Positions 3,263-59,426 of a stretch of 64,000 nt of DNA are shown here, piece after piece. Both the position numbers and the translations under genes were made by a program. The stretch spans positions 16,292,094-16,356,093 of the forward strand of contig NC_092647.1 in assembly GCF_039555335.1 (NCBI RefSeq), in the 5' to 3' direction. A model generated the notes under the pieces. The model worked only from the letters and a program-made list of their open reading frames with translations, did no database searches and was not told the DNA's origin. The number at the start of each line of letters is the position of its first letter. The stretch's first letter is position 1. This DNA is from Amphiura filiformis (lineage: Eukaryota; Echinodermata; Ophiuroidea; Amphilepidida; Amphiuridae).

Positions 3263-6200
3263 CTGTATGTGAATAAAATATAACAAAATCAAAGATAAAG
3301 AAATAGGGAATGTAAACTCTATCATTTCAATTGTAGCATCAGTTCCAAATTCTTTTTTTTTAAGTGATAGTTTGGATGTACCTGGAGCCAGGGGTCGCAT
3401 TTAAGGAGTTTGCGCGTCCAGGGACTCCTTATTTTTTGCTTTTGCCCATTTTGGACTCCTTAAATCTCAAGTAGAAAGTGACCAAAGGGTCTGATAAAAA
3501 CTGTATGGACTCCTTAATTTCACGATGCATGGAGGTATAAATCATCAATTTAAAATAAACAAATAAAAAGATCAGTAAATCTTTTGAATCACCATAGGCC
3601 AACAACACTAATAATTTCACTGGAATATTTGACAAGTTCCGAAGTTTAGAATTTCGGACAGATGGACTCCTTAAATTCTCATCGGACCCCTTAAATGTTG
3701 GTTTTGCACGTACCGAAGGGTACAGAAAAATTAAATTGGACCCCTTGATTTTGTGTGCTTGTGCTACCCCTGCCTGGAGCAATGACATAGTTAGGACCAA
3801 GTAATCTTACAGTTAACATTCCATCTTCATCTATAGTGCTTGGCACATAACGTTAACCAACATACTTTTAGAGTCAAATTGTGTATAATACTTGGAACAG
3901 AAAAAAACACAATTGTGTAAATGGCATTGGCATGGTTGGATTCACTTCTGTGTTACGCACCCCCCCCCCCCCCCACACACACACACCCCCACTCGCGTAG
4001 GCAGGAAAACGAGGACCTAATTTTTCACTTGATTTAAAACATACTAACCGAGGACTCACACATCCGTTCTTAATCGCCATACCGTGGACCTCACTCACAC
4101 ACACCAGACCACTTACTATCCAACCGTGGCCCGTCCTATACCACCCATAGGTGGACCCGTTTTAAATGCATTTTTACGTTATTTGAGATGTCCTGGATAT
4201 ACTTAAAAGGCCGAGGACGTCCACGGTCACCGGGTGTCCTCATTTGTCAAGTGTGTATCCTTGTGTGTGTCCTCGTTTGCCTGGCTACGTAAACGCACCC
4301 CGGTGTACATTGCTCAGTGTACGTGAAAAATTGTCACACACTACAAATACATGTATCAGGCTGTGTTCATTCAAATGAAATTTCTAGCATAGGGTGCAGC
4401 CAAAGATTGGTCATACATATGTGACCTGCTCCCACAAAACCAGATATAACTCACTAATTTTGAAAATTGAGTTTTTGATGTCATCATTTAGTATAGGTCT
4501 TCAGCTTTCATTTGATGCCAAAATTATGTTTCTGGGGCATGTGGTCCTCATTCTATGGTCTTTCAATGGGAAGGGGGAAGCGCCACATAAAGAAAAGGCA
4601 AATGCAAGAAATGGCTTTAAAGTTGTAAAATGACATGTTAAGGACTTTGAAAATGTTAGATTTGGGTGCTTTTTAGACTTAAAAGAATATTTTGTTTTCA
4701 GTGGTTGGTTAAAGTAAACATATTAAGGAATCAAAAATAATAAAAACTGAAGACCCGAAATCTGCAAGGTGTTTCACCCCTCTCCCAACTTTGACTTGCC
4801 GTATCTTGAAATGGTGAGTGCGACTTATAGCGGGTTTCGTCAGAGCGGGTCATAAAATTTGCTTAAGTCTTAAATAGGATCCCTCAAACCTAGAATTCTG
4901 TTTCAAATGCAACTTTTTTTATCAACTACATTTTGTTAGTCTCACTTTAGTTTCAAGTTTCAAAATACCTTTAATCCTGAAGTAGATTCTCCATTATCAA
5001 GTCGGAAATCAAATGCATGCCAGGGGCAAACGATGCACAAATGACCATCAATATCCTCAACGTCTCCAAGTTCCAAGGGACCTCCTGGTAAATTGAAGAA
5101 TTGTATTCAAATTAATTTGACAACATATGGCAAAACAAATTATGACCAAAAAAAGTGGCCCATGCAAACCATGGACACATGGGTACCTTTTTACATGTTT
5201 GTAAATAGTACAAACATTTTTACATGTTTGTAAATTAGGACCAGACCAGACTTAAAGTCTGGTACTAAGTCCAGAGACCCCAGTGCACACTACATGTATA
5301 CTGTGAAAATAGTCTTCGATGGTGACAGTATTGATGTTTTACCAATGACTATTCCTCAATGACACTTTTCATAGCTCTACAATAGTCCTGCCTGCTGCCT
5401 TACAACACCCTGGGTGGAACGTTGCAACGGTATGGCACTTAATGCTAATGTAGTAAAAGCCCTGTTACTCATAGGCTTATATAAAGTACAAGCTGATTTT
5501 GTTTGTTTGTAAGTTAGACTGCAACATGGTAATTTTTCATCTTTGAAGAGAGAACTACACCAGGAGTGCTCATCTTAAGAATTAAGGGCGACTCCGAAGA
5601 TGACCGCGCTGGTGATCTACCAATGAACTACCATCCCCCGTGATGAAAACTTCAACACATTACATACATATTTCATCAAAATAACTTCTGAACAGTATTA
5701 AAATAAAAGCACATTCAGTTGCTCATAACTTTAACAACTCACATAACTCATAATTTTTAATTAAAGGGGCATTTTGTGATCCACAGCCTCATCCCCCACT
5801 TTTCTCAAAAAAAGTTGAGATTTTTATATCACTGGAAACCTCTGGCTACATAATGTTTATGTACAAAATATTTCTTGCAGATTAATTCGTTTTGCAAAGA
5901 TATCGTGAAATTTGAATTTCGTTCTGGTGCACCAGAACGAAATTACAACGCATTGTCTATGGAGCAGTGTAATACACATAATCATGCATAACTCGCAAAC
6001 ACAAAATCGGAATCAACTGAAATTTTGGGAATAGGCTTTTTTCGTGGATATGTACTGAAAAATGTCATAAAAAGAGGATGCTAGGATCACGAAACACTCC
6101 TTTAAAGCAAGTAATTAAAAACACTAAACCTAAAATTTATATGAACATGAATGGAATTTGTTAGCTGCAGTGTGGTAATGCAATAGTAACTGCAACTCAA

Positions 6201-6773
6201 CTGTAAATGAAAATATAAGAAAAAAATCATGACTGAATGAAATTTGATGCGGTTTTAAATAAGTTGCCAACTTAAGGTGGAACTACACCCCCTGATAAAT
6301 TTTTTGACTAATTTTGCATTTTTCTCAAAAAATAACTACACACTGATAACAAAAGTTATGTATATTATATGGGCAAAGAATCCAATTAGGGCATTATAAC
6401 CTCCATTTTAGTAACAAAAATGCAATTAAAAAAAATGACCAATGCTATTTCTCTGATATTTTCAGAGTTTGTAGTATGTAGAAATATCAAGTAGTTGCTC
6501 TTCTCCTAAAAAATCAAAAGTCCTATACCTCAATGATAAATGAAACCTACATGTAGGTGCACAGGGAAGATGACTTGCAGGGGGAAACATTATATATGAA
6601 AATGGTCAAATATGGTCAAGAGAGATGCAGCTCCTCCTCCCTAGCTACACCACATTCCTGCATGTACAATGTAGTATTTCTTACCTTCATGTGGACATGA
6701 TGCATCCATGGCAAAATACTGGTTTGGAGGCACATGTATGAGCACAACATCTTCACCATCCTCGGCATACAAT
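3134..6773 (-). CDS. RFESD-like: Rieske [2Fe-2S] domain protein, RFESD-like (three 3' exons, N-terminus not found)
   Basis: Joined in reading order, the exons are 6773-6685, 5084-4969 and 3262-3134. All three junctions keep frame with GT-AG borders. The product carries the Rieske cluster signature: CPH at the end of the first exon and CIVCPWH in the second, which supply the Cys-x-His and Cys-x-x-His ligands of a [2Fe-2S] cluster. The stretch GGPLELGDVEDIDG is the diagnostic block of the animal soluble Rieske protein RFESD. The last exon gives the closing beta strands (YDIRVVEGKVYIHT) and ends in HWIALG. The role is presumed electron transfer in a soluble protein; the partner is unknown. About 115 residues are visible. 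The start must lie in one or more exons above 6773 that are too short for me to identify. Family assignment is secure; orthology to RFESD rather than another Rieske ferredoxin is likely. Confidence 0.9.
3389..3772. mobile_element. hAT-type MITE with iterated GGACTCCTTAA word
   Basis: The ends are CAGGGGTCGCA and GCTACCCCTG. They are flanked by an exact 8-bp duplication CCTGGAGC (3381-3388 and 3773-3780), typical of hAT insertions. The interior holds six or more copies of GGACTCCTTAA or GGACCCCTTAA-like words. It lies in the last intron of the Rieske gene. There is no transposase frame. Confidence 0.85.
3959..3989. repeat. poly-C / (CA)n low-complexity tract
   Basis: About fifteen C bases run into CACACACACAC. 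It is intronic in the Rieske gene. Confidence 0.9.
4969..5084 (-). CDS. RFESD-like: Rieske gene exon (second cluster ligands)
   Basis: 116 bp. The acceptor is TTTACCAG before 5084 and the donor is GTATTT at 4968. It completes the split Gly codon, then reads GPLELGDVEDIDGHLCIVC followed by PWHAFDFRLDNG, and ends in frame 0 after SGLK. CPWH supplies the second Cys/His pair. Confidence 0.92.
5761..6105. mobile_element. MITE family A, copy 1 (TTAA ends)
   Basis: 345 bp bounded by TTAA on both sides. The termini AAAGGGGCATTTTGTGATCC and GGATCACGAAACACTCCTTT are near-complementary. The centre holds the palindrome TTCGTTCTGGTGCACCAGAA. Two more copies lie at 30444-30790 (opposite orientation) and 62277-62607. 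The TTAA border fits a piggyBac-type target, which is inference. It sits in a Rieske intron. Confidence 0.88.
6273..6450. mobile_element. MITE family C, half copy
   Basis: It starts TTAAGGTGGAACTACACCCC and continues with AAAAAATAACTACACACTGA and AACAAAAGTTATGTATATTA, matching one half of the complete copy at 42370-42690. The second inverted repeat is not seen, so the copy is truncated. Confidence 0.7.
6685..6773 (-). CDS. RFESD-like: Rieske gene exon (first visible; first cluster ligands)
   Basis: 89 bp. The acceptor is CTTTCATTTTTAG before 6773 and the donor is GTAAGA at 6684. It enters with one base completing a split codon and leaves after GAA G. It encodes LYAEDGEDVVLIHV and then YFAMDASCPHE, ending in the CPH ligand pair. 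Confidence 0.88.
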
Positions 6774-6839
6774 CTAAAAATGAAAGCAAAATGCACAAGT
6801 TGAATGCATGGGCAGTAAAGGACTGTTATGAGCAGTCTT

Positions 6840-8331: not shown

Positions 8332-8630
8332 ATAAAGCAGTATTCAGACTCTTTATTATGCATACAATATTGTATGCAACATATCTCGTTGTTTAATCTA
8401 TTGCCATTCTATTTCCAGTAATGTTTAAGTTCTAACGAATGTTTGATGACGTAAAATCGATAATATATTTCTACTAGATATTACATGTAACATATTATCG
8501 ATTTTTCGTCATCAAACATTCGTTAGAACTTAAACATTACTGAAAATAGAATGGCAATAGATTAAATAACGTAGATATATGTTGCATACAATATTGTACG
8601 TACAATACTCGGAGTCTGTGGAGCGCTTTA
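8332..8630. mobile_element. Fold-back palindrome, arms of about 100-130 bp
   Basis: The left arm (about 8332-8467) and right arm (about 8490-8630) are inverted copies, for example CTATTGCCATTCTATTT against its complement, and GTTCTAACGAATGTTTGATG against CATCAAACATTCGTTAGAAC. The spacer is only about 20 bp. Outer ends are TAAAGCAGTATTCAGACTC and GAGTCTGTGGAGCGCTTTA. It would form a near-complete hairpin. It has no coding capacity. Confidence 0.88.
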
Positions 8631-9440: not shown

Positions 9441-9685
9441 CAGGACTGTCAACTTTTTAGAATTGCTTGGCGTGATGCGAGACAGAGCCGTACCGGGAAT
9501 TATCAACTACAATGTTCATTTTGACCCATTATTATTTGAGGGGTATTCAAATCATTTTGATGATGCATGAGATTTTACTCATTTTCCAGCATTTTGCGTG
9601 AGATTATACTACCTTGACGTGAGACCGTGAGAAAGTGACCCAATGCGTGAGACTCATGGCCAATGCATGAGAGTTGACAGCCCTG
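9441..9685. mobile_element. hAT-like MITE with iterated GCGTGAGAC word
   Basis: The ends are CAGGACTGTCAACTTTT and GAGAGTTGACAGCCCTG, inverted copies of each other. CTTATCA flanks both sides (seven bases). The interior repeats words such as GCGTGAGA, GCATGAGA and CGTGAGAC. It sits about 40 bp upstream of the LINE fragment. Confidence 0.75.
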
Positions 9686-14950: not shown

Positions 14951-15534
14951 CCAGGCCAGGGCCAGGGGGCCACTCATATAAAAAGTTGTAAGCATGCGTG
15001 GGAACAAAAACGTGGAATATGGGTGGTCTTTTCTACTGCAACACGGGCCCGCACAGGCCCGTGTTAAGGGTCTCAAAATCATTGATTATAGCAAATAAGG
15101 GTGTAATTTTTGACACCATGTGTCCGTGTTAAGGGTAGTTAAATCTAATCACATTCCTACCCTTACAATCGTCATAATAAAATATACTGCCCTAAATGCA
15201 GGCGATAATTATGTTGAATAATGATAACTGAGTAGGCCTAAAGCCTACCAAATCCAGTTAGGAAGTATCCAATTAGAGTATAATAATAAAGGAAATAAGA
15301 AACCTTGAAAGTTGATGTCTTTTACTTTTTTCTTCAAAATTGATCATGCATCCTTGCTAAGGGTTGGATTTAATCCACTTGTAACTTTGTCCTTGTTAAG
15401 GGTATGGTTAACAAACCATTATCCTTCTTAAGGGTCATTTTGAAGACACAATGGTTGTCTTTGTTAAGGGTGCTTTTCTGAAGTGCATTCACACGCATGC
15501 TTACAACTTTTATATATGAGTGGCCCCCCTGGGG
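14951..15534. mobile_element. hAT-type element with iterated GTTAAGGGT word
   Basis: An exact 8-bp duplication TGTATCGC lies at 14943-14950 and 15535-15542. Inverted ends include GGGGGCCACTCATATAAAAA and its counterpart TATATATGAGTGGCCCCCC, each running about 40 bp. GTTAAGGGT or CTTAAGGGT recurs near 15063, 15127, 15357, 15394, 15427 and 15465. It landed inside the left inverted repeat of the larger element at 15537-16776. Confidence 0.88.
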
Positions 15535-18307: not shown

Positions 18308-18464
18308 CAGTGGCAGTGCCATGGAGGGGCCTGTTCCCCCCAAAAAACCCAAAATGAAAATTTCCACTTTTTACAGCAATTTTGTGCAAAATTTGTTGAT
18401 TCCCCCTGAAATTCACTTTGCCCCTCAACCCCCGAAAAAAAAAAAATTGCTGGCGCTGCCACTG
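18308..18464. mobile_element. hAT-type MITE (CAGTGGCAGTGCC...GGCGCTGCCACTG)
   Basis: Terminal repeats are 13 bp. The flanks CTCAAGAA (18300-18307) and CTCAAGTA (18465-18472) match at seven of eight bases. Same style as 6840-7029. It is upstream of the first visible centrin exon. Confidence 0.85.
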
Positions 18465-18943: not shown

Positions 18944-21900
18944 GTAATTCTATTTTAACCCCCTGAGCACTACCTACCGATCTAACATTGCTTCTGATTG
19001 GTCAATTACATGATATTTTCACTTTAATCACCAATCAGAATGAATAATTTACCCAAATTTTTTTGCGTGGTGAAAATATTCTAACAATGTTGCTGATCAG
19101 GGGTGAAATTAAGTGGGAAACGGTAGCCGTTTGGCCCCCAGAAACTCTAAAATGGCCCCTGGTTCCATCTCAATTTTAGTTGACCAGGCCAGGGGGACTT
19201 TTCTCACAAAACTGGCCCCCGGGATATAGTGAACCAAAAATATTTAACTCATCCAGCACATCTTTATTTTTATTGGCTCCTTGGTAATTGGAAATGGCCC
19301 CTGGTTCTTCCAAATCTTGGTGAACCAGGAGCCACTTTTTGCCAAAGTGGCCTCTGGTTCAAGCTCTCTTATTTTCACCCTTGTTGCTGATTGGACAAAT
19401 TGATAATGAAAACTTCTGTTTGGCCAATCGGCAGGTTGTTCTCATGGGGTTAACGTTTAACCTAACTCCCTAGGGAAAGAAATAAAAGAAGATGAAAACC
19501 AAAGTTGTTTTCTCTTGTGGTTTTGAAACACCAACCTATATTAATAAAAAACATATTGGCCCAAGAATTGTTTTGTTACGTTTAAGGAAAAAGAAGTGGG
19601 CTGAAAAACATTTTTTGAGATTTTGGGCCAAAAATGAGCATTTTGGCCCAAATGTGACCTCACAGATGAATTTATCAAGTCTTTGCCAATCTAATACACT
19701 TATATATACTTTAGACTAACAATTATGAGTTAGGCACTTGAAACTTGATTCTGAGTTTAGCGTCCGCCGCCCGCGTTATGAATTTTGTGCCGCGTTTGAG
19801 ATGTGAAATCTGAAAATAATTCATTATTGTGCAAATTACTACTAAAACCAGGAAGAAAATTTGTTGTGAAAAAATTTTAAACCCCTTTGACAACTAGTGG
19901 AAGAATTCATCTAAATATTTGAGCATTAAAAATATACAGATTTTTGACCCTTGCTCTTTCCAATTATTTCAATTATACCTTTGGGATACCAGGGTAGACA
20001 AGAAGTGAACTTAACCTAGCCATGGACATTGTTTATGTTTATAATTTAAGATAGGAGATACTATATAAAAGACCTATTTTTAACAAATTGGTGCCAATAA
20101 TAATTATATCAATGTTCTGCATGATTGTTATTTTTGTATAAATGAGTCAACCCCCCCCCCATTTTCCCCTAACCTCAAATGTATACAGAGAGGTTAGTAC
20201 AAATTGGAGAGAAGAAGACTGATATACTTCGGAATACATTGAGTTTGTTTTAAAACTTCATTTAAACAAAAAGCAAGATAATTATACTTTTATAAACGTT
20301 TCGTGTATTCGTGACATTTGGGACCCAAATAGAATAAACAAAAGTGCATAAGCATTGGTAAAAGGCCGCGTATAATGAAACCTTGAAAATAATGAATAAT
20401 GAAATAGTTGCCTCATTATGAGCTGAAAAAAAGGGACGCTAAACTCGATATCAAGTTTCAAGTGCCTTATGTATGAGGCCGGAAAGTTTCCATAATTCTA
20501 GGGTTATAAGACCAACCTTAAAGGTTACTCCAAATGAATGTGGAACTAATTACCATAATATCTCTACTACAGGTGGCAATGAGAGCACTGGGATTTGATG
20601 TTAAAAAGGCAGATGTGTTGAAAGTACTTAGAGACTATGACAGGGACGAGACTGGCAAAATCAACTTTGATGATTTCAATGAAGTCAGTAAGTATACCAC
20701 CACATTGTACAGTTAGATGGAGGAAGTTACTCATACATAAGTACCGTACAAAATGAGATCTGTCGGACTTCCTTTGAATAAGGACAGATACAATGTACTG
20801 CGTTAACAGCTTTTTATGGGGTCTAAAAGGCACTCGGACTAAAACGTGTGCGTAGACTGCACAAAACATAAAGAAAATTTCATGAAAGTTTATCTGCGTT
20901 GATAAATTCATAATTGAAGTTTAAAAATTTTGATCCAAACATATCTCCCTTCCAACTCACAAATTTCTGATGGTTTGCAATCTTTTATCAGCAAGAGTAA
21001 TACTGTGATCTTTATCATCAGATCATGAGTCATGACCTTTTTGACCTTATTCCAGAAAAATACAGTACCGTACTAATTTTTTGAGATTAAAAAATATTAT
21101 CAGGTTCTGCCAAATGAAACATAGCTCAATCCTTATCATTCATTTAGTCCTAACTGGAGATAGAAGAAAAAGTTCATTGTTTTACTAATTTCTTGAAAAA
21201 AGAGCCAAAAACATGCATTTTCGGCATGTTTTCTGACAATCAAGTCACAAAAATCACAGACTTGGAACAAGTCTAAGCATTCAAAATCTTGAGTATATGC
21301 CGAAATTTTGCTCTAATTTTCACTTTTTTGTGTTACTTTAATTAAATGGTTGGTTATAAGAATGAAACATGTGTTTTCCAAAAATTAGAATGCAGAAACT
21401 GAAAGTAGTCTTAGTACAAGTCTTTGGGCTTGATTGTCACAGCATACGAAAAACACCCTAAAAATGCATGTTTTTGGCCCTTATTTCTAAAAATTGGCCA
21501 AATATTTAAATTTGACTTATTGTTAGTTAGGACTAACTAAAGGATTAGGATTTAGCTGTGTTTCATTTGGCAAAACAGGATAATATTTTTTTAATCCGAA
21601 AAAATTAGTTCTGTGTTTTTCTGGAATAGGGAGTAGATTTCATCAAACAACAATTGCTTGTTTGCCAAAACAGGCTGCAATTTTCATTTTTATTTTACTG
21701 TCTTGTTCTCAAGTTTATATTAGATTCAATAATAAGCCATTGGGTATTGCTATTGGGCATTTTTAGAAAAATAAACATTTGAAAAAAAATCAGTTGGGTG
21801 GAGCTAGTTTTGTTTCCCGCTGAAATTGTAAGAAAAAACATTTGGATATTATCCATGGATAATGTCTTTTTTGATGGACATTCTGTACTAGCAAGAAAAC

Positions 21901-24900
21901 AATTGCTTTATTGTGATTTAAAACCAAGGTGACATACAGTTTTTGTTCAACGCTATATAGGATGGCATTCTTAGTTCATGCAGTGACTGAAAGTTAATTG
22001 AAAGAGGGGACAAAATTTGTATTATTAAAGCTACATGCTGTGTAACATGCACTGATGATTTTTGAATGATTAATGTGCCCGATTAGATTAGTGCATCTAT
22101 TAAAAAAAGAAATTTACCCCAATATGGTTCAGTTTTGAAATTGTGATTATTTTTCCAAGTGTAAGGATACTTTTTTTTGGCGCAGTATATGATATCTGTG
22201 TATGAATTCATCTGTGTTACAGTAACAGACTGGATGTTGGAGCGAGATCCACAGGAGGAAATCTTGAAGGCATTTCGATTATTTGATGATGATGATTCAG
22301 GCAAGATTGGCATTCGTAACTTGAGGAGAGTAGCCAGGGAACTTGGAGAGAATATGACTGAGGAGGAGCTGAGAGCCATGATTGATGAATTCGACAAGGA
22401 TGGAGATGGTGAAAGTATGTACAATGTAGCCTGATTATTTTATGGTTGATGTGATATTTAGTCTGTTTACTTTGTTTGAGAGGCCATAATATGTTGCAAG
22501 TAATTTGAATTAAGTTCAAGAAAAGAAAAAGGTTTGTTTCAAATGTGCATACTGCATGTATTTCGTCAAATAGTCGCCCCCCCTCAAATAAACGCCCCCA
22601 CCACTTTTTTCAACCAAGATGTTTCAAAAATGCAGATACGTACTTCCATGGTATCTTGTGTAGTAAGCTTACCAAGTTGTCCACATGGTCGATAATAGCG
22701 TCACTTTTTGGCGAAAATCTGAATTGGAAACCCGAAGTGAACCAGAAGTCAGTGTTTCTAGTTCATAGTTTGTCATTTTAGCGTGAGTTTTAAGTTTACC
22801 TAATGATTTTAACGTGAATTATCGTTCTAAAATTGACCTTGAATAAACGCCCCCCTTTGGGAAAATGTAACGACCCGGGGACGTTTATTTGACGAAATAC
22901 GGTATGTGAAATAAGTTTTGCCACATAGATTTACGTGACCAACCCATTTTGGGCCTTTTTTAGTTGTCAGAAAATATTAAAACAAAGATAAAAATTGCAG
23001 CTTAAAAAACATGGGGAGCTAAAAACAATGTTCGGTGACAAACCTGTTCTTGGCTTAAGGTTACTGGTCTGAACCCTGGAATTATGGAAACTTTTGGGCC
23101 TCATAACTGCTATATTGTTGGTCTAAAGTATATAAAAGTATACATAAAGTTTTTTTTCCAACATTTTTTCAGACAATGTAACAAGAAAACTCTTCAGTAA
23201 AAAAATGTTTCTATTAATTTTTTAGAAGTAGATATAAACATCTTGGACCATTTTTAAAAAAATTGTTTTAAATTTTGATCAACTTCACCAAAAAAATGAA
23301 ATTTGGGCAAAATTGAGCATTTTTGGTGAAAGTTGGTAAAAATTACAAATAAAAACAATAAAAAAACAGGTCCTAGATATTTATATCTGTTTTTGAAAAT
23401 TGATTTAAAAAAATTTACTCAAGAATGTTTTTGTTACATTGTCCAAAAAGAATTTGACCAAAAACGTTTTGGGGATTTTCTCCAAAACTGAGCATTTTTA
23501 CCCAAATTTGAATCCACATTAATATTCATTTTTCAAGTCTTTGCCACTCTAAATATGTATACATTACCTTTAGGGGTGGTGCAATAATTATATGTGTACC
23601 CCTGGGGGTGAATTCTCAAAATGGTCTGCCAAAATCGCTTGTTCCCCCTTTGGCGTGCCAAAAACCTTTGCCCCCCCTTCGACGTGCCAAAAACCTTTGC
23701 CCCCTTTTGACGTGCCAAAAATCTTTGCCCCCCCCTTACACATGCAAGATTTTGGGGAACCCGAATTTAAAACCTTAAATTGTCTTAACATATAATGCGA
23801 AAGAAGCAGGAAATTTTGCATATTTGAACATGTTCAGAACGCTTTCCTCGCCTTTTAGGGCGTAATATAGAAACGGTGCCCAAAATATCTGTGCCAAAAT
23901 TGCTTGCCCCCTTTCGACCTGCCAAAAATTGCTTGACCCCCCTTTCGACCTGCCAAAAAAATGCTTGCCCCCCCCCCCTGCTGGCCTGCCAAAAAATCTT
24001 TGCCCCCCCTATAATTCACCCCGGGTACACACATAATATTGCACCACCCCTTATATAATTAGACCAACAATTTAGCTGTTATGAGGCCCAAAAGTTTCCC
24101 AGGGGGGCCAAAGATTCAAGTAAAAAGGGTCTTTTTTCATGATCAGGCACTGTACTTACGTATCGTGAATAGGGTATCTAAAACAAGGAAATTTAAGAAA
24201 AAGGGTATACATGTACCTTGTACAAAAATCACATTGTTTGGGGTCCTTTGAAACAAATGTAGCATGGAATAAAGGTTAAAAGTTATGAACCTTTGAATTT
24301 GTGTTTTCCCAGTTGTTATGAAGGGTTTTAGAGTCAAAAAATGACTGATTTACTTGTTTCTAATGGGGCAAAAATAGTGTCAATACTTATTTAGGGTATA
24401 AAATTGCACTTGTCATACTTGTTTAGGGGTGCATTTTCACTTTTCAGACCTCGTAAATACTTATTTAGGGTGCTATTTGGGACTTCGTGGCCACGTATGA
24501 TACCCCTTGTCAATGACCAGTGCCCCCGGAAAAGTTTCCACAATTCCAGGGTTAAGACCAATCTTACGGTGTAATGCAATGAAAACAAAGAAGGGCACCG
24601 ATGGCAAAGGGACTTTAATGGGCACAGCAATGTGTACATGTGCTGTTGTGGTATGGGATCATTTCGAGGGCTAGCATGACAAGTATTAAAGTAGCGTACC
24701 AATGGCATTTGCTTTCAGTTATTTTTCCCTGCAAATTTCATGTACATGTACTCAGCAAAGAAGCACACTCTGTAAATCAAATATTGCCAAGTGCGTATAG
24801 GTACACTTCTTTGCCATCAGTGGGTGATACACATGGTGGAATCTGTGAATGTGTGTGCCACCAGGCCCATAGCTCCCCCCCAAAAAAAAAAAAAGTATAC

Positions 24901-26648: not shown

Positions 26649-26839
26649 CAGGCCTTGTATTTTGAAAATTGCTGGCGAGTGACAAATCACTCTCCTCAAA
26701 ACTTGTCAGGTGAACTGTAGGCGAGTGATTTTAATCAATTGTATTATTATTTCACCAAATGTAGGCGAGTGATAAAAAGCTCTCCTCAGCTTCATTTTAG
26801 GCGAGTGATGGTCTCGCTCACCTCAAAAGACAATGCCTG
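26649..26839. mobile_element. hAT-like MITE with iterated GGCGAGTGA word
   Basis: The ends are CAGGCCTTGTATTTTGAAAA and AAAAGACAATGCCTG. GGCGAGTGA appears four times, plus inverted forms such as TCACTCTCCTC. Its head and tail match those of 54087-54281, whose interior instead repeats GGAGCTC. GAAAAG lies on both flanks, but a clean 8-bp duplication is not seen. Confidence 0.75.
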
Positions 26840-27049: not shown

Positions 27050-27444
27050 GTTTTGACAACCCTGGATAACCCAAGAAAGCCTCTATTGAAGCTTATTTCC
27101 ATTGGGGTCCATTTGAACACCGGGACGGGTTGGGAACAGTCAGGGGTTAACACCCTACTCTTTTCGAAACTGGCTGCGAGATACATGTACAGGTATGGCT
27201 CTCTGTACACGGGACCGACGGCTTAACGTCCCCTCCGAAGGACGGAGTACTTTCATGATTCGTTTACCCAATTCTAAATGAACCATGGGAGAGCGGAAGT
27301 CTGAATTTAATCTACAGAAGTTGCCAATTAATTTCAGACTGTTTTTTCCAAGTCAATATCCCAGCAAATCGCCACCGCCGGGAATCGAACCCGGGACCTC
27401 ATGCACTAAAGGCAAGTACCCTAACCATTGCGCCACGCTCTCCC
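27050..27444 (-). repeat. tRNA-headed SINE-like element
   Basis: On the minus strand, 27444-27371 has a pol III box A-like TGGCGCAATGG and box B GGGTTCGATTCCCGG. The 7-bp acceptor arms (GAGAGCG and CGGTGGC) do not pair, so this is not a functional tRNA. The following body includes CCGTCCTTCGGAGGGGACGT and CGTGTACAGAGAGCC, which looks like a conserved SINE central domain. The exact SINE family is unverified. Confidence 0.65.
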
Positions 27445-34033: not shown

Positions 34034-34190
34034 CAGTGGCGTAGCGTGGGTCATCATATTGGGTGGGGGCACCGGGTCTGATTGGGGGGCGCAAGCTGTT
34101 TTTCAGACATTTTCCTATAGATGAGATTTTAACAAATTTCAGATTGATTGGGGGCACATGCCCCCATGCCTCTATGACGCTACGCCAGTG
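34034..34190. mobile_element. hAT-type MITE (CAGTGGCGTAGC...GCTACGCCAGTG)
   Basis: 157 bp with the exact 8-bp duplication ATTGTTCT at 34026-34033 and 34191-34198. CAGTGGCGTAGC is a common hAT terminus in animals. Confidence 0.93.
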
Positions 34191-40070: not shown

Positions 40071-40724
40071 GCTGCTAAGAATACGCAATTGCGTTATTTA
40101 CGCCGCAATTTATGCGTATTTTGGCTCCAATTATGCTTTTTGACATTTTGAAAAAATCTATAAAAAAAAAAAAAAATTTGGAGAGTCCCTGGACCTAACA
40201 TCAAGTGCTACCATCATTAAAAAAAATTTTTTTAAAGATACAAAAAAATTACAAGTTTGTATCCAAATGGGACCAATTTGTAACTTGTGTTCACTTCAAA
40301 ATCTATCTAAGATATAGACTTGTGTACAAGACCAATGCATTTTTATATCTTCAATAGACTACTAGTATGCAGTGAACACTTACAAATCGGTCTCATTTGG
40401 ATACAAACTTGTAATTTTTTTGTATCTTTTTTCCAAAAAATTTTTTTTAAATAATGATTGCAGTACCTCACTCTAGGTCAAGGGACTTTCTAAATCCGCA
40501 AAATATTTTTTTTTAAACGCAATTTTTCTTTCTTTTTTTTTCTTTATTTTTTTTTTTTTTTTTTTTTCCAATTTTTTTCAATGATGGTAGCACTTGATGT
40601 TAGGCCCAGGGACTCTCCAAATCCGCTGAAAAAAAAAAAAAATTAAAAATCGCCAAAAATTTTTGGCGGGAAATCGCGGATTTTTGCGTTTTTTGGCCTC
40701 CAAAATCGCGTATTCTTAGCAGGC
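40071..40724. mobile_element. Nested palindromic element with GCTGCTAAGAATACGC ends
   Basis: GCTGCTAAGAATACGCAATT faces AATCGCGTATTCTTAGCAGG. Inside are two further inverted layers: GGACCTAACATCAAGTGCTA against TAGCACTTGATGTTAGGCCC, and TTGTATCCAAATGGGACCAA against CGGTCTCATTTGGATACAAA. Long A/T runs fill the gaps. Confidence 0.85.
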
Positions 40725-41388
40725 CTAGAGTATCCCATTATGCTTTGCGGTACCATTATAAAACTAAACATGTCAAAAAATGTACACAAAATCCCTCACT
40801 TCAACTTTCAATTACTCGCTTAAATCAGGGGAGCTTAGACTTTTGTTTGAAAAAATATGATCCTTGAAGTATAGTGAAACTATCCATAGCTCTCAATATC
40901 TAAGCAGCTCTTGTTTTGCATTTGCTCTGGAGTATGCAGAATTGCAGATATACTGCAATGTATGATGGGGTACTCCTTTCAGCTGCTGTGGTAAATACCA
41001 TTTGCAAAGCTGCATTTTGCAGTTCCACATTGAAATTGAACAACCAGTTCCAAAGATATGAGCAATTAAAGAGTTTCCAAAACAACAGAAAACAAAAGGA
41101 AATACATGTACATATCCTTTGTTTGGCTAAATCTCAAAATCAATATTTTTGAGATCTGACTGATTTTGCTTGATCGCGTCACATATTATGCATCATGAGT
41201 TCACAAGAAAATGTTGAATAATGCCAAACAAAATGCGATTATTACAGTACGGTACTTACTCTTATTATATTCAATTCAATCTTTCACAGTGAGTCACATT
41301 TTACAACATTACTGAGAATTTGCAAATATTAGGCTTGCAATATTCAAATCCACAAATGACAAAATTGATCTCATTCACATATTAGGCC

Positions 41389-41832: not shown

Positions 41833-42049
41833 CAGGGACTGCCTTTTGAAAGGAGTGAGAGCAATCACTCCTCTACAGCTCTTAAGTTGCATTTGAAAGA
41901 ACAATTTATAGCTCTTCTAGATGACTCGTTAAATTCTTTATGCTTTAATGGCCACATGTGTAAACAGCTCTTCTAAAGCTATTCTTGAAGAGACCAGAAG
42001 AGCATTCTACACTCTACAGCTCTTCTCATTTTCAAAAGGCAGTCTCTGT
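41833..42049. mobile_element. hAT-like MITE with iterated AGCTCTTCT word
   Basis: CAGGGACTGCCTTTTGAAA faces TTTTCAAAAGGCAGTCTCTG. CAGCTCTTCT, TAGCTCTTCT and inverted GAAGAGC words recur at least seven times. Target duplication unclear. Confidence 0.75.
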
Positions 42050-42849: not shown

Positions 42850-43434
42850 TACACTACTCAAAGAAATCAAAGGACCAGATTTATTTATTAGCATTTTGCA
42901 AAAACAGCATTAACCTTGTAAATCAGACGAGTGTTGTTTCATTCAGTCATGCTTACAAATAGGTAACCAAGCCTGGAAATAAGTGCGCACGGGGAGCAAA
43001 TTTGCCCTCATAAAGACATAAATTGCTCCTGGTTCTTGTAAAAGTCACATGAACCAGGAGCAATTTATTTTAGAAAATTGCTCCTGGTTCCAGTTTTTGC
43101 ACTTGATGCAGTAGTGCTGGATGGAATGCTATTGTACTTGTAGAAAAGGATTTAATATTTTACTATTTGAAAAATGCTCCTGTTTCTTCAAATATTGCTC
43201 CTGGTGCTGGTAAAATCCCAGTGAGCCAAAAGCAATGTTCAAAAACAAATTGCTCCTGGTTCCAGTCTGCTTATTTCCAGGCTTGTATAGGTAACATAAC
43301 ACTTGCACTAACTACCAAGTACTGATGCTCTGAGACACGGCAAAACACCTTGGTTAGCACCATAGAACAAAAAAAGAATGTAGGCAAAATCCAGATTGTC
43401 AGATTCTGATCTTTTCAATTTTTTGAGTAGTGTA
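42850..43434. mobile_element. Tc1/mariner-like TIR element with nested hAT-like MITE
   Basis: ACACTACTCAAAGAAATCAA at the left faces TTTTTTGAGTAGTGTAT at the right, with GGACCAGATTT against AGATTCTGATC further in. TA borders both ends. The element 42968-43285 is inside. Confidence 0.78.
42968..43285. mobile_element. hAT-like MITE with iterated TTGCTCCTGGTTC word
   Basis: CAAGCCTGGAAATAAG faces CTTATTTCCAGGCTTG perfectly. ATAGGTAAC lies at 42959-42967 and again at 43287-43295, one base off the right end. TTGCTCCTGGTTC-like words occur six times on both strands. Confidence 0.85.
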
Positions 43435-43498: not shown

Positions 43499-43668
43499 CA
43501 GGCCTGGAAAATATGCTTATTTCCCGCAAGAGAGATAAATTTCCCTCCAACTTGGCAGGATTTCCCACCATTTCTTATGTATTTCTTTATCCAGAAAAGC
43601 AAAATTTCCCTTCAAATGACAAAATTTCCCAGAAAGGAGATTTCTGAATTGCCTGTTTTTCCAGGCTG
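43499..43668. mobile_element. hAT-type MITE with iterated AATTTCCC word
   Basis: CAGGCCTGGAAAA faces TTTTTCCAGGCTG. The exact 8-bp duplication TACATGGT is at 43491-43498 and 43669-43676. AAATTTCCC occurs about five times. Confidence 0.9.
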
Positions 43669-46008: not shown

Positions 46009-46715
46009 TTAAGGTTGGTCTGAACCCTGGAATTTTGAAACTTTCGGGGACCTCATAACTTCTAAATTGTTGGTCTAAAGTATATAAAAGTATACATATT
46101 TAGAATGGCAAAGACTTGATAAGTTCATCTGTGAGGTCAAATTTGGGCCAAAATGGCACTTTTGGCTCAAAATCCCAAAATAATGGTTTTTGGCCCACTT
46201 CTTTTTCGTGCATCGTAACAAAAAAATTCTTGGGCCAAATTTATTTTTTTCTTAATTTTTAAAAACTACATCAAAATATCTAGGACCAGTTTTTTCATTT
46301 TTTTGAATTTTGACCAATTTCACCAAAAATATTTGAAATTTGGGCCAAAATCGGGCTTTTTTATGATTTTTTTGAAAAATCAGCATTTTTTTACCATTTT
46401 TGGTGCAAATTTCTCAAAGTTAGTCGAAATTCAAAAAAATGAAAAAACGGGTCCTAGATATTTTGATCTAGTTTAAAAAAAATTTTAGCCCAAGAATTTT
46501 TTTTGTTACGATGCACTAAATAGGAGTGGGCCAAAAACCGTTATTTTTGTGATTTTGGGCCAAAAGTGGCATTTTGGCCCAAATTTGACCTCACAGATGA
46601 ACTTATCAAGTCTTTGCCATTCTAAATATGTATACTTTTATATACTTTAATCCAACAATTTAGAAGTTATGAGGCCCGAAAGTTTCCATATTTCCAGGGT
46701 TCAGACCAACCTTAA
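46009..46715. mobile_element. TIR element family B, complete copy
   Basis: TTAAGGTTGGTCTGAACCCT then GGAATTTTGAAACTTTC faces GAAAGTTTCCATATTTCCAG then GGTTCAGACCAACCTTAA. The arms extend well over 150 bp, including TAAAGTATATAAAAGTATAC and TCAAGTCTTTGCCATTC. No protein is encoded. Partial copies are at 19.5-20.5 kb and 23.1-24.1 kb. Confidence 0.9.
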
Positions 46716-50207: not shown

Positions 50208-50573
50208 TTACCCTAAGATTCTTGTTCCAAGAGTAAACATAACTTGGTCACAGGTCTGTTCAGTACTGAAGACTTGGTCTTTATAGATGCACTTCTGACA
50301 AGACCTTGGTTTCCAATATGGACCTGCTGGACTCTGCCCATTAACCATGCGTTTCTTGGGGCATTGTTGTTCACTTACTAAGACTACATCGCCTACTTGT
50401 AGATTCCTTGTTGGTTGTAACCATTTCTGCCGCTTCTGGAGCATTGGCAAATACTCACGGGTCCATCTCTTCCAAAATACTTCTGTCAAGTATTGGATCT
50501 GTCTCCATCGCTTTCTGGCGTAGACGTCTCTTTCATTGAAGCTGCCTGGAGGGAGTGTTACATTGCTTTTCAA
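50208..50573 (-). pseudogene. BEL/Pao integrase C-terminal domain (DUF5641-like)
   Basis: RWRQIQYLTEVFWKRWTREY and LPMLQKRQKW, LQVGDVVLV are diagnostic. The expected final block (RPVTKLCLL) is present but in another frame after about 50340. Confidence 0.92.
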
Positions 50574-50602
50574 CAGAAGTAAGTCATTCGATGTGATGAC
50601 AT

Positions 50603-51481
50603 TCAGATCCCTGGATCACTTGACACTCTGGTCAGAGGTCTGCTGTTCATTATTTGTTCAACTTCGCACATGAATGTGTGCAGCTCCTCCTCTCCTCGAC
50701 AGGTCTTCAAGTATTGCTCTGTTAAGATGGCATTCAGTATTTTTCTCACTGTTCTAATATGCCTCTCCCATACACCTCCATGATGTGAGGCAGCTGGAGG
50801 GTTAAAGTTCCAAGTGATTCCTTGGTTTGTAGAGAATCTCTCTATTACCTCCTGGTCTAACTCATGAAGTGCTTGCTCTAACTCTCTTGATGCACCAACC
50901 AAGTTAGTGCCGTTATCTGAGTGTATTTGTTTCACTGGTCCTCTTCTACTCATGAAGCGCCTCAGTGTGTTTATACATGAACTTGTGTCCAAGTTGGTCG
51001 CTACTTCCAGATGTACTGCGCGACTGGCAAGGCATGTGAATATTACCCCGTAGCGCTTTCTTGTTGTCCTGCCTTGTTTAATCAGGAATGGACCGAAGTA
51101 GTCAACACCGGTGTTGGTAAATGGTGGTTCATCAGCCTGTAGGCGGTTGGCTGGCAAGTCTGCCATCTTTTGACTGCTCACAGCTGCTTGCACCTTTCTG
51201 CACACCACACATTTCTTGACCAGATTCTTTACCACAACTCCTGCTTTGATAATCCAATACTTCTGTCTTAATTCAGCCAATACGTGCTTTCTTCCCTGAT
51301 GCTTGTTGCTTCGATGAACATACTGGATTATCAGTGTTGAGATATGACTATTTTTGGGTAATATGATCGGATGCTTTGCAGCTTCTGTTATTGTGGCATG
51401 TCGCAGTCTTCCACCTACTCGCAACAAGCTGTCTTTCGTCATAACTGGATCTAAATTCGCTATGGAAGATCCTTTCTTCAC
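50603..51481 (-). pseudogene. BEL/Pao integrase core
   Basis: 292 codons are open. Visible are the histidine pair and CVVC of the zinc-binding domain, then the DDE catalytic residues in FTNTGVDYFGPF, QIHSDNGTN and SHHGGVWERHIRTVRK, and MNSRPLTRVSSD. This is the best preserved part of the element. Confidence 0.95.
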
Positions 51482-52915
51482 ATGGCTGGTGCCAGCTTGT
51501 AGGGTCCTGTATTCTGGAAATGTCTGTCTTTGTATCGTGCTTCAGAATGGCAGTTTCTGCCTTGTACATATCTTCAGTGGTAATCTTTCCACATTCTCTC
51601 TTTAGGGTCTCTTTGTCTGCTCCTTTAAGCTTCTTTTGCAGGTACTCCTTGAATTTGGTCCACCAAGCCACTGCTCTCTTCAACTTTACCCAGTCACTGT
51701 AATACTGTATCAAGTTGTCTGCAGCTTCTCTCACTTCACTTGCTTGGATTCCGCATACTGTTGTACCTGCTTCTGTTTTCTCATTTTTCCTATCTTCTGT
51801 CTCTGTCAAATCTTGATTGACTTCAGGCCAATGTTGTTCAGATTCCCAGAGGAAGGCTGGTCCATTCAACCATTCTGTCTTACCGGTAAGGTCTCCAGCA
51901 TTCAGTCCGCGAGAAGCATGATCTGCAGGATTTAGCTTTGTGGGGCAATACCGCCACTGCTGGGGATCTGTGCTTTCTCTAATTATGGCAATTCTGTTGG
52001 CTACAAATACTGGGTATCTGGATTTCTCATTGTTGATGTACTTCAAGACAGTCTGGCTGTCTGACCAGAATGTAGAGTTACTGATCTCAATGTTAAGCTC
52101 TCTTCTTAGGGCGGTTTCTTGTTTTACAGCTAATGTTGCTGCCGTAAGCTCTAACTTCGGGATCGTGTGTGTCTTGAGGGTGTCACACGTGACTTGGCGG
52201 TAACAAATGCGCAATGTATTTGCTGATTTTCATTCACATATCTTACGTATGACACGGTCCAGTAGCCTCCCTGGCTTGCAGCAGCGAAGTGATGAAGTTG
52301 AGTATCAATCACGCTCCCAAAATCCTTAGGCTTGTAACACCTTTCGATCTTGATCTTCTCTATCTTAGGAAGGTCTTCTAGCCAAGTATTCCACTGCTTC
52401 TCTTGCTGTTTGCTTATGTCTTGGTCCCATCCAATCTTGTCTTTGGTAGATGCTTGGAGAATCTGTTTCGCCTTCAGGACGTATGGTGACGTGATTCCTA
52501 TCGGGTCATATACCCGACTCAACACAGAGAGAACATTCCTTCTGGTTGGTCTTAGGTCGGCGCCCTTTACTCCTACCCCTATCTTATCTTCCTCCACGTG
52601 CCAAAGAACTCCTAAAGTTCTTTCTGTTGGAAGGGCGTCATGGCTGAGATCTAGCTCCTTCACTTCCTTGGCTCTTTCTTTCACTGGGATCGCTTCGAGT
52701 AGCTTTCGGCTATTACTTAGCCACTTCGTCAGGTTGAATCCTGCATTCTTCAACAAGGCTGTGATGTTGCTAGCTATTTCTATTCCTTCTTCTTCAGTGG
52801 GAACCGACTTTACGAAGTCGTCAACATAAAAGTCGGTGTTGACTGCTTCTACTACTCTTTTACCATGGTCTTGTTCGTTATCATTGGCTGCTTTCTTTAG
52901 CGCGTAGCTGGCAAC
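51348..52915 (-). pseudogene. BEL/Pao RT catalytic end, Pao protein region and RNase H
   Basis: YVDDFVKSVPTEEEG contains the RT active-site Asp pair. Downstream, LTKWLSNSRKLL, LGVLWHVEEDKI, VYDPIGITSPYVLKAKQILQ and ELTAATLAVKQET, FWSDSQTVLKYINNE mark the connection and RNase H (WSDS). The frame changes near 52180. Confidence 0.92.
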
Positions 52916-53246
52916 ACTGGGTGAGGATGTAGCTCCAAGACGTGTACCCTCATTCTGTAGGTTTTAAGGTCTTGCGCTGTGTCTCCATTAGGCCACCATA
53001 GATAGCGTAGCATATCACTGTCATCTTGTGGTACTCCTACTTGGTAAAACATTTGTTCCACATCCGCCATCATGGCTATTCTTTCTTCTCTCCAACGAAG
53101 CAGAACTCCATACAGGCTGTTCGTCATATCAGGTCCCTGAAGTAATTGTTCATTCAGCGATGTACCTCCAAAGGACACTGGACAGTTAAAAACTACTCTC
53201 ACTTTTGGCTTGTGTGGATGTTGAACAGCGTGGTGTGGAATTCTGC
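52897..53246 (-). pseudogene. BEL/Pao reverse transcriptase, N-terminal part
   Basis: It carries [20 protein letters not shown] followed by the [20 protein letters not shown] block typical of Pao RTs, then the aspartate-bearing [20 protein letters not shown]. The frame is lost near 52920. Sequence beyond 53246 in this frame is antisense to the inverted duplicate and is not RT. Confidence 0.92.
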
Positions 53247-53333
53247 TTCGTTGGAGAGAAGAAAGAATAGCCATGATGGCGGATGTGGAACAAATGTTTT
53301 ACCAAGTACGAGTACCACAAGATGACAGTGATT
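53247..53333 (+). repeat. Inverted duplicate of 53010-53100 (RT fragment)
   Basis: The plus strand reads CTTCGTTGGAGAGAAGAAAG and continues with AATGTTTTACCAAGTACGAG, nearly identical to the minus strand at 53100-53014. About 87 bp are duplicated, with about 146 bp between the arms. The translation [17 protein letters not shown] appears here on the plus strand. Confidence 0.93.
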
Positions 53334-53605: not shown

Positions 53606-53814
53606 CAGGGTCAGAAATTCGCAACCAAGTGTGAGAATTCGTTTGGATTCTCTAAGTGGAATTTGGCAAGAATCTTTGCCATGGATTCTTGCCTTATGTA
53701 CCGGTATATAACTTTGTAATTTGTAGGATTTAAACTGAAATATTTACAAGAATCCATAGATTCTTGCAATTTACGAGAATGGATTCTTGGATTCTCGCCA
53801 AATTTCTGACCCTG
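53606..53814. mobile_element. hAT-like MITE with iterated AGAATTC/GGATTCTTG words
   Basis: CAGGGTCAGAAATTCGC faces GCCAAATTTCTGACCCTG. Words such as GGATTCTTG and AAGAATCCA recur about eight times on both strands. Flanks share AATTC but not a clean 8-bp duplication. Confidence 0.78.
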
Positions 53815-53889: not shown

Positions 53890-54590
53890 CAGACATAAGG
53901 TATGAAAGGTGAATTTGCCATCAAAGAAAGCCAAAACTGAAAACCGTTTTGTCATAGCACTTTCCATAGCAAAGTTACATCTTATCAAAGATTGACTTTC
54001 ATCAAAAAGATTCAGCTAACAAAACAGCATTTCGGTGGTGTTTCTAGATCTTAAAACAGTGATAGTCTCATGATGATAGCAGATTTCAGGCCTTAATTTT
54101 TGAAAATTGCAGGAGCTCTCTAAGGTGCTCAACAAGGTCAAGGAGCTCAATCTTTTAATATCTGTATTCAAACATAGGGATTCAAGTAGTGAGGAGCTCT
54201 GTAAATCATACTCTTGAAATGTTGTTAAGGAGAGCTGTAGGAGCTCTGGTGCAATTGAGCTCCTCAAAAATGACATGCCTGGAAAAAGTGGGGACTTGGG
54301 AACCATGTTCCCAGGAAATTTTGCTATTTGGAGGGAAATTTGTGTTTTCTAAACAAAGAAATACATAAGAAATAATGGGAACATTTTCAATACTGTGCAA
54401 ACTTGGAGGGAAATTTTGATGATGTTCATGGGAAATATTGCATTTGTCTGAGCTTTTCTACGTGGAACTACTTTCAAAATCCCTTTAAAATTCCATGTGT
54501 GATTGTCTCATCACCAAAAAAAATCATATATTTGGGTCAAGTGAAGTATCTCTGTATTTATGTAGGTTTCCTTCAATCATTGATCAGCAA
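53890..54590. repeat. Dispersed repeat family E, copy 2, with nested insertions
   Basis: It matches 10420-10800 block for block, but is split by 54087-54281 and by a following segment (54290-54440) rich in GGGAAATTT. Its right part resumes with ATTCCATGTGTGATTGTCTC and AATCATATATTTGGGTCAAG. Confidence 0.8.
54087..54281. mobile_element. hAT-like MITE with iterated GGAGCTC word
   Basis: CAGGCCTTAATTTTTGAAAA at the left and CAAAAATGACATGCCTG at the right. GGAGCTC or GAGCTCC occurs about six times. It is nested in repeat family E. Confidence 0.8.
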
Positions 54591-55270: not shown

Positions 55271-55625
55271 TTATATACCTCATATATAGATTCCTGTCAT
55301 CTGATTGGTTAAAAGTGCAGTCATTGGATTAACTATGCCCTCCTTTTTAACTATTCCCCGGGCAATAGTCTTTTAAAAAGACTATTCCCCGGGCATAGTC
55401 ATTTTCACATCGCGCTGTGTGTAGCTATCAAACTCTACGGTTTCGCACGCCATGGTGTGTTCGCATTATGCACGCGGCGCCAATGCGCTGCCTGCCAGTT
55501 GCGGTGACGCGATCGGTTCATAACGGAAAACTTTCTTTGTAAATTTTACCATGGCCTAATATGAACAATAAAATAGGCCTTTTAACCAATCAGATGACAA
55601 AAATCTATATTAATGAGGTATATAA
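55271..55625. mobile_element. TIR element, ~46-bp ends
   Basis: TTATATACCTCATATATAGA, TGTCATCTGATTGGTTAAAA faces TTTTAACCAATCAGATGACA, AATGAGGTATATAA. The centre holds a further palindrome built on ACTATTCCCCGGGCA. Confidence 0.88.
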
Positions 55626-55626
55626 A

Positions 55627-55791
55627 ACAAATGTTGACTGCTATGAGGGGCATGGTTAATATTATAGGCCCAAGGTGATCTCAAAACCATGCTATGACCC
55701 GAGGTGCAGCCGAGGGTCATAGCATGGTTTTGAGATCACCTTGGCGGGCCTATAATTTTAACCATGCCCCTCATAGCAGTCAATATTTGTA
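55627..55791. mobile_element. Near-perfect 165-bp palindrome
   Basis: Arms of about 73 bp (TGCTATGAGGGGCATGGTTA, GGTGATCTCAAAACCATGCT, ATGACCC) surround a loop of about 15-18 bp. It abuts the element at 55271-55625. It would form a very stable hairpin as RNA or cruciform as DNA. Confidence 0.92.
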
Positions 55792-56092
55792 TAATAACTC
55801 GAGAAGCATAGCCATACTATTTCTGAATCAATCAATAAAGCAAAGCAAATCATACTTGTAGGCCTATAATACTATATTAAATATAATTGCGACCAACCGA
55901 TACAGCTCGACACGCCCAATGTATGAATAAAAGCACCTAACAATAAAGTCGCCCAATTGAACAGTTGTAGGTGTCGATCGCACGACTTCATAATTAATAT
56001 TGATTGGCAACATTTTCCAATATGTCAGCGCTCAAATCGGACACAATAGAACAATAGACTCTTCAGTGCGTTGGTTAGAACTTTTAAATTTC

Positions 56093-58502: not shown

Positions 58503-58611
58503 ATATGTTTAGGCCCTGGTTTAGGCCATTTTGGCTGACTAGAAATTGTGTTAACTGAGGTTTGCCTCTCATAGTACCTACACTAGACATACCGTACATG
58601 TAACTTGTAAG

Positions 58612-59426
58612 CAGGGTTCACAGTTTACTCTCAAATAACCGGGTCCACTTTTTTATGCTGGACCCATTCAGATCCCATTTAGTTGAAATTTGCGGGTCCC
58701 AAATTGATTTTTGTGGGTCCAAATTGCACTTATATGTACGAAACTTCAGAAACACCCGGAAATATAATATATTTTCAGTACTGGCGCAAACGATAAATAT
58801 TATAAGTATGCTGAATTTGGCACCCAAAACTTACCAAAGTCGAGTCAAATTACTGTGTAAAAGACGACTTGCCGCGATCGGCGGACCTTCTCATAAAGAA
58901 CTACAATTACTACCTAATAACATGCACTACTTTAATCATCTAATTATTTGCTTATTTTGTTATACCGTACTTATATTTGCTCAGTTGAAATACAACTACC
59001 GCAAAAAACGTGTTTTGTTATTATTAATTATTGTAACATAATATTTGCACGATCCGAAAAAAAATCGCAAGTCAACCTCTTCCATAGTTCCCCTCGTATC
59101 GCTGATCAAATATCTGTGCATGAAATAGCGATGGGATGTGTATCATGTTGCAGCGATTTGTGTAATTGTATGTAATTAATGAATGAAAAGTTATTAAAAA
59201 AATGTTCTGTGAGCCGATTGAGCTGGGTCACACAATGTCAATGATGATCTGACTATGATTGATGATATTTTCTATTTCTTGGATGGGATTTTTTTCCGGG
59301 TCCAAGCACAGCCAGTGAGCCTGTGCTGCTGGACCCATTCAGTAAGTACCGTAATCTTACTTTTTCCGGGTCCAGTGAGTTCAAAAAGTATCCTGGACGC
59401 GAAAACACAATAAACTGTGAACCCTG
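58612..59426. mobile_element. hAT-type element with iterated GGGTCCA word
   Basis: CAGGGTTCACAGTTTA faces TAAACTGTGAACCCTG. The exact 8-bp duplication CTTGTAAG is at 58604-58611 and 59427-59434. CCGGGTCCA, GGGTCCAAATT and GGACCCATTCAG recur near both ends. A 128-codon frame in the middle has no transposase features. Confidence 0.92.

Follow-up and report, generated by a model that had tools for sequence, protein, structure and literature searches.

Transposases of the hAT superfamily recognise short repeats close to the ends of their elements through BED fingers, and the terminal inverted repeats of these elements begin with CA(G/A). Both the existence of such subterminal repeats in hAT elements and their differences between families are already known. 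Here we consider eleven short hAT-like elements of the ophiuroid Amphiura filiformis, which lie within a single gap-free stretch of 64,000 bases with 37% G+C (NCBI RefSeq assembly GCF_039555335.1, contig NC_092647.1, positions 16,292,094 to 16,356,093 of the forward strand), hereafter the window. Each element was read together with its flanks, is named below by the window position of its first base, and repeats a short word largely its own; in four of them different words occupy the same places relative to one end.

In Hermes, three repeats at the left end are bound by BED domains of a transposase octamer; the position of the repeats is important, and their arrangement differs between the two ends (PMC10368747). 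The elements described here resemble Hermes in having several short subterminal sites near both tips, arrays that differ from one end to the other and rigid positions relative to the tip. The Hermes sites are 4-bp AAG(T/C) motifs, with five in the outermost 55 bp of each end and a quasi-palindrome formed by the first two (PMC10368747), whereas the words described here are 7–13 bp long and the sites of the shared array are about 21–29 bp apart. The Herves transposase binds CGATTCAT at both ends, an 8-bp motif that is repeated there, as our words are, and is sufficient for transposase binding, and binding sites are stated to differ between hAT elements (PMC3143072); that study is a biochemical one of a single family and, in the portion available, sets out no geometry common to several families. 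Kat1 has a repeated hexamer whose polarity is unlike between its two ends (PMC4763223). In maize Ac/Ds, short non-autonomous elements have hardly anything in common with an autonomous partner beyond inverted ends and a few subterminal hexamers, a likeness to the present case, but a single hexamer, AAACGG, is discussed across classes, with at least three copies in only 17 of 331 Ds1 elements (PMC3260210). Finally, in the VANDAL elements of Arabidopsis and their VANC proteins, the nearest parallel encountered to the present idea, related elements likewise have differing repeated motifs, the reader is encoded by the element, co-evolution has been proposed, and the motifs are tandem repeats with an anti-silencing role (PMC5735166, PMC10398659); here, in contrast, the words form no tandem arrays and the sites keep to set positions relative to the tips. 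In the open-licence literature searched, no title or abstract opening describes one subterminal spacing across hAT families with differing words, subscription papers lying outside that scope.

The eleven elements are best read, from their sequence, as hAT-type miniature inverted-repeat transposable elements (MITEs) whose words would be subterminal transposase-binding repeats. An 8-bp target site duplication (TSD) and terminal inverted repeats of 10–25 bp are the criteria given for MITEs of this superfamily (PMC3942097). In agreement with a preliminary description of this DNA, inverted ends of the CAGG or CAAG type and recurrence of the named word are seen at all eleven places, and the five exact 8-bp duplications that it claimed are present and flush at 3389, 14951, 19098, 43499 and 58612. 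A further exact 8-mer is duplicated at 42968, displaced by 2 bp, and the other five elements are without a clean 8-bp duplication: 9441 has a flush duplicated 7-mer and 26649 a 7-mer displaced by 1 bp, and inspection of the flanks at 41833, 53606 and 54087 found none.

Four of the elements form what we call group A. They are 3389..3772 (word (TT)GGACTCCTTAA, TSD CCTGGAGC), 19098..19383 (word TGGCCCCTGGTTC, TSD TTGCTGAT), 42968..43285 (word TTGCTCCTGGTTC) and 58612..59426, an 815-bp hAT-like element with perfect 16-bp inverted ends and TSD CTTGTAAG, in which the word GGGTCCA lies in the outer ~130 bp at both ends and which fits the other maps when flipped. For comparison among the four, the words were taken as TGGCCCCTGGTTC, TTGCTCCTGGTTC, TTGGACCCGGAAA and TTGGACTCCTTAA, the register of the last two being chosen by hand. 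At one end of each element, which we term R-type (the right end of 19098, 42968 and 3389, the left end of 58612), sites are centred near 30 (+), 55 (−), 84 (+) and 105 (+) bp from the tip. The array of 19098 occupies 19274..19360 (+), with sites at 19274 (+), 19295 (+), 19322 (−) and 19348 (+); that of 42968 lies at 43174..43262 (+), with sites at 43174 (+), 43195 (+), 43223 (−) and 43250 (+); that of 58612 lies at 58636..58721 (+), with sites at 58641 (+), 58659 (−), 58694 (+) and 58715 (+); and that of 3389 lies at 3664..3748 (+), with same-strand sites at 3664, 3684 and 3738 and a degenerate sequence where the opposite-strand site is expected.

This geometry emerged from a comparison of site positions and strands, counted from the element ends, over all 55 pairs of elements, with sites listed from the preliminary words at 1–4 mismatches (set per word by hand) and matched with a tolerance of 6 bp. 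Elements 42968, 58612 and 19098 stood out, with 7 matching sites between 42968 and 58612 (reached in 6 of 30,000 random maps), 6 between 19098 and 58612 (0 of 30,000) and 6 between 19098 and 42968 (3 of 30,000). When the expected places are taken from these three and the sequence closest to the word of the element concerned is sought within 11 bp of them, the refined sites lie at 30/56/83/104 in 19098, 30/57/85/106 in 42968, 31/53/84/105 in 58612 and 31/54/85/105 in 3389, where the second site matches its word at 6 of 13 positions. When the four R-type ends are printed, G-rich cores start at about 29–32, 83–85 and 103–106 in all of them. Two tests were designed to be blind to the letters of the words. 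In one, any tip in the window was scored by the mutual similarity of the 13-mers at the map places, and the four ends fell at fractions of 0.00004 to 0.00023 among 115,956 tips, a 2-bp shift being allowed for the ends and not for the background. In the other, which is the fairer test, the spacing of each end was applied by itself to the ends of all other elements; ends and background alike could shift, and the background left out elements and arrays. Scaffolds were available for the 18 of 22 ends with three or more sites; the four R-type ends recognised one another in every one of 12 directed comparisons, where no more than 1 of 1500 background tips did as well, and the other 14 scaffolds gave a sole match to another element, that of 58612R to 42968L. 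Since the words of these four elements occupy matching positions at one end, they may not all be independent of one another.

The identity of the words themselves at matched sites is 0.65 for 19098/42968, 0.61 for 58612/3389 and 0.29–0.40 for the remaining four pairs. Because identity is low in those four, common descent is clear for two pairs only, and that all four words descend from one is our guess from their sequences. The flanks at matched sites are 0.42 identical for 19098/42968 and 0.20–0.31 for the other five pairs.

It is also necessary to ask whether the words exceed chance. A motif search of both strands was run alike on every element and on its dinucleotide shuffles (40 for each of nine elements, 16 for 14951 and 58612). 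The preliminary description had named chance low complexity as what would tell against it, and in the event the motif score, resting on 5–9 sites per element, exceeds that of every shuffle in all eleven (0/40 or 0/16 reach it). Counts of 9-mers with one mismatch exceed all shuffles in 8 of 11, being reached in 1/100 for 9441, 3/100 for 43499 and 2/40 for 58612. Random segments of the same window, a background which still contains other mobile elements, leave the motif score unmatched in 7 of 11 elements and equal it in 1/150 cases for 41833, 3/120 for 9441, 4/150 for 43499 and 3/40 for 58612; the cruder 9-mer count goes unmatched in two elements only, 53606 and 54087, with 9441 (17/100) and 58612 (14/40) ordinary among window segments. 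A blind sliding scan for repeated words gave 53 peaks that cover all eleven elements, the strongest outside tandem arrays being those of 19098, 42968 and 26649. However, 25 of the 53 lie outside any listed element, extra end pair or array (one of them is the relative of 43499 described below), and word repetition alone is therefore not diagnostic.

Within each element the word copies are 69–88% identical, and their 10-bp flanks have a mean identity of 0.29 as against 0.26 at random places; similar cores in near-random flanks indicate that the words were not spread by copying longer units. The words are also largely private. When matches of at least 12 bits are counted, every matrix has 5–9 in its own element and 0–9 in the rest of the window, with 0 or 1 in any other element except between 19098 and 42968. 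In 58612, the longest element, no motif site is more than 121 bp away from an end (p 0.0002), which leaves a central gap of 583 bp between successive site starts (p about 0.0003). The preliminary description held that the interiors are made of one word; this is so for the short elements only, the sites of 58612 being subterminal, and from this it follows that a one-word interior is what remains when an element shrinks to its two ends.

The seven other elements are 9441..9685 (word TGCGTGAGA, motif sites in the right half, 7-bp TSD CTTATCA), 14951..15534 (word CCTTGTTAAGGGT at six sites on one strand, TSD TGTATCGC), 26649..26839 (word AGGCGAGTGA), 41833..42048 (word ACAGCTCTTC), 43499..43668 (word ATTTCCC at five sites on one strand, TSD TACATGGT), 53606..53814 (word GGATTCTTG on both strands) and 54087..54281 (word AGGAGCTC), whose right end adjoins another element. 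Two boundaries had to be corrected: the inverted end of 14951 begins near 14963, after a repeated CCAGG stretch, its partner lying at about 15531, and 41833 stops at 42048 rather than 42049. The elements 26649 and 54087 had been described as sharing head and tail while carrying different words. The common head is present, and is also found, as TTTTGAAAAT, in the reverse complement of 41833; the two words have no detectable relation; the common tail reduces to TGCCTG, since the GAAAA that follows belongs to a repeated GGAAAAG flank in 26649 and to the start of a 43499-type neighbour in 54087.

This neighbour, overlooked in the preliminary description, is an inverted relative of 43499 with the same word at 54277..54448 (−), adjoining the right end of 54087, and it allows words to be compared within a family. 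The two copies are identical at 123 of 156 aligned bases (z 30.8 against shuffles). With the aligner's gap kept, word columns agree at 34/35 and the remainder at 78/109 (Fisher p 0.0008); with one word read without the gap, in a hand count, the figures are 32/35 and 76/107 (p 0.013), so that word positions are 91–97% identical and other positions 71–72%. The other ten elements have no equally clear second copy within the window.

The preliminary description further proposed that the words turn over faster than the ends. The pair 26649/54087 fits this; 3389/58612 shows the opposite, with word matrices that are mildly similar (p 0.035, without correction for the 55 pairs) and concordant site positions despite unlike ends, which match at 8 of 16 bp. 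Over the 55 pairs there is no correlation between end and word similarity (rank correlation rho −0.06, p 0.65), and among the four pairs most similar in their ends the words are unrelated in 42968/43499, 26649/54087 and 26649/41833 and related in 19098/42968. Ends and words look uncoupled, not ordered in speed. The left end of 41833 carries ATCACTCCTC, close to the word of 26649, and elsewhere this element has AGCTCTTC, while 54087 contains a variant of AGGAGAGCT; judged from these variants, the words of 26649 and 54087 may be linked by intermediates. A label-swap test on 26649/54087 reached its minimum, 2/32, on five hand-chosen sites. A common map for 26649, 54087 and 41833, suggestive with our first site lists (p 0.015 for 26649/41833), was not supported with the preliminary words and was rejected. 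As a separate observation, 3389..3772 and 53606..53814 align above shuffles (z 7.1) though their ends and words differ.

We propose that these elements are hAT MITEs whose words are read by the transposase of each family, the geometry being kept by the transposase oligomer and the letters by its BED finger, and we put the probability of this at about two in three. The elements would be transposon ends with little in between, and each word a subterminal repeat recognised by the transposase that mobilises that family, most likely through N-terminal BED zinc fingers. Fixed distances and orientations from one tip, as in four of the eleven, would let a transposase multimer whose BED domains are held in a set arrangement grip the end, and different arrays at the two ends would distinguish left from right. 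The geometry of the array would be set by the oligomer and retained across families, and the letters of the word would follow the specificity of the BED finger, changing at all sites together. The bias of the sites towards one strand, given below, also counts in favour of this proposal. The more specific claim within this proposal, that spacing and orientation are a conserved code of the oligomer and that the word is rewritten at every site as the finger changes, we regard as tentative and as somewhat short of an even chance. We infer a hAT transposase as the reader, BED fingers as the contact and co-evolution as the cause. The suggestion in the preliminary description that the words are family-specific binding sites is borne out in so far as they behave in an element-specific manner, with private matrices, a subterminal position in 58612 and conservation in the same-family pair; the binding is what we infer.

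Several observations weigh against this proposal. The single spacing with differing words rests on four elements in one window and is seen at one end of each; the opposite ends of group A are looser, with word-blind fractions of 0.00003 for 42968L, 0.006 for 3389L, 0.010 for 19098L and 0.068 for 58612R. With the preliminary words, the map of 3389 is not significant against the other three (481, 223 and 2702 of 5000 random maps), and its membership of group A therefore depends on the tests that use spacing alone. At matched sites the words are only 0.29–0.65 identical, no better than chance in 19098/3389. Concerted change was examined by swapping labels at sites that match at 8 or more of 13 positions in both elements (6 to 8 of 8 sites); this test reached its minimum in 5 of 6 group A pairs and gave 14/128 for 19098/42968, but it is biased, because each site had been picked for its fit to the word of the element in which it lies, and adds little beyond the words being repeated. 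When whole R-type ends are aligned with gaps, site columns stand clearly above the rest in only 2 of 6 pairs (0.65 vs 0.43 and 0.69 vs 0.34). Crowding of sites towards the ends is weak in 3389 (p 0.036) and 14951 (p 0.045), where the largest-gap test gives 0.088 and 0.20, and the maps of 26649, 54087 and 41833 do not match mutually (1849, 1973 and 4473 of 5000 random maps). The flanks of the words exceed random in 14951, 19098, 42968 and 53606 (random places as good in 0.003–0.043), high word-repeat scores occur also in repeats without hAT-type ends, and ten of the eleven families are represented once in the window. Lastly, a search of 99 open reading frames (ORFs) for a transposase, BED or hAT dimerisation domain was negative, eight ORFs examined at a loose threshold gave no hAT or BED match, and the ORFs searched in the window included no coding relative, so that the reader protein is assumed.

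One alternative is ordinary homologous divergence, in which the members of group A are old relatives and the site map has been retained through homology of the whole end, without special constraint. Whole-end alignment indeed succeeds for 19098R/42968R (z 9.6) and 58612L/3389R (z 6.9), site and other columns contrast little in 4 of the 6 gapped alignments, and by eye the words can be aligned as variants of one G-rich word. Yet in the other four whole-end alignments the score hardly departs from chance (z −0.2 to 2.5) though the spacing is shared, and the flanks of matched sites, 19098/42968 apart, show the low identities given above, and for these reasons we consider divergence alone unlikely.

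The words might instead have multiplied inside the elements by tandem or minisatellite-like duplication, as in VANDAL, with no protein reading the ends. A strand bias, with 57 of 70 sites on the same strand through the whole element (p about 5e-5), and flanks slightly above random in 4 of 11 elements would suit this, whereas Tandem Repeats Finder reported no array within any of the eleven, mean flank identity is barely above random, and the spacing, irregular within an element, is nevertheless common to elements with different words; such duplication is therefore highly improbable as the explanation. That the words bind a host factor (a transcription factor, insulator or repressor zinc finger) and not a transposase would agree with a sequence that names no reader protein and with the negative search for a transposase in the ORFs scanned. 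Against it stand the setting of site position and orientation relative to the tips and the privacy of each word, which a self-encoded reader suits better, and we judge a host factor improbable too. The transposase reading, with its oligomer and BED finger, remains the one that we prefer.

Scans made across the window put the eleven elements in context. A scan not guided by the list, for inverted ends of 12 bp flanked by an exact 8-bp duplication, left 15 pairs once low complexity had been filtered out, of which six lie inside one tandem array, four are 3389, 19098, 58612 and 42968 shifted by one base, and five are 2462–3136, 8373–8588, 34034–34190, 46146–46579 and 46266–46471. A looser scan, for duplications beside CA..TG ends, returned 7 matches, and was unspecific at that setting, since controls with displaced duplications gave 7, 17, 2, 3, 2 and 19. 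When 20 of the peaks of the blind word scan were searched for ends and duplications, 13 had no pair and 7 had weak or nested ones, the best of these being a possible element at 40067–40727 with TAGG-type ends TAGGGCTGCTAA/TAGGCCTGCTAA around a repeated word and a duplication, GAGTATTC/GAGTATCC, with one mismatch. Further hAT-like elements with CAGTGGC-type ends are found at 34034–34190 and 18308–18464, with 8-bp duplications ATTGTTCT (exact) and CTCAAGAA (one mismatch) respectively, the former also carrying the word GGGGGCA four times. The 675 bp at 2462–3136 have perfect TAGGCACCGGAGTTTC inverted ends, a duplication CCCTAAAG and a repeated TTTTCGCGC word. A long inverted repeat at 46080–46640 reiterates TTTTGGGCCAA on both strands and has a high word score without hAT-type ends, and nested inverted repeats at 55300–55830 (GAGGGGCATGGTT and others) gave no end pair in the search. 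Exact matches to the 26649/54087 head and to an inverted pair of the 42968 word numbered 0 each in viral contigs, and those to the head were also 0 in a collection of genome contigs.

The ORF search drew on 538 stop-to-stop ORFs of at least 45 amino acids, of which the 145 longest were listed and, after 46 had been excluded by eye (many of them overlapping or antisense), 99 were searched. It recovered, on the minus strand at 50211–53298, what is left of a BEL/Pao-type retrotransposon (Peptidase_A17, integrase, reverse transcriptase and DUF5641) and paired EF-hands in the ORF at 22165–22431, which was assigned to the EF-hand matches by reading its sequence and which we take to resemble a centrin exon. 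The window also holds tandem arrays at 60412–60889 (units of 16 and multiples) and 404–1156 (170-base units), a tRNA-Ser gene at 35294–35366 and, on the minus strand at 27376–27437, a further tRNA-like match.

Single elements hardly show how the specificity of a transposase changes when many sites must change alongside it. If several small families of one genome keep a single geometry under different words, they would form a natural series of such changes. If our reading is correct, families of hAT ends would be recognisable by geometry alone when their ends and words are unlike, and the specificity of a transposase that has not been seen would be predictable from the word of its element. Pairing words with BED fingers could then link orphan MITEs to their transposases.

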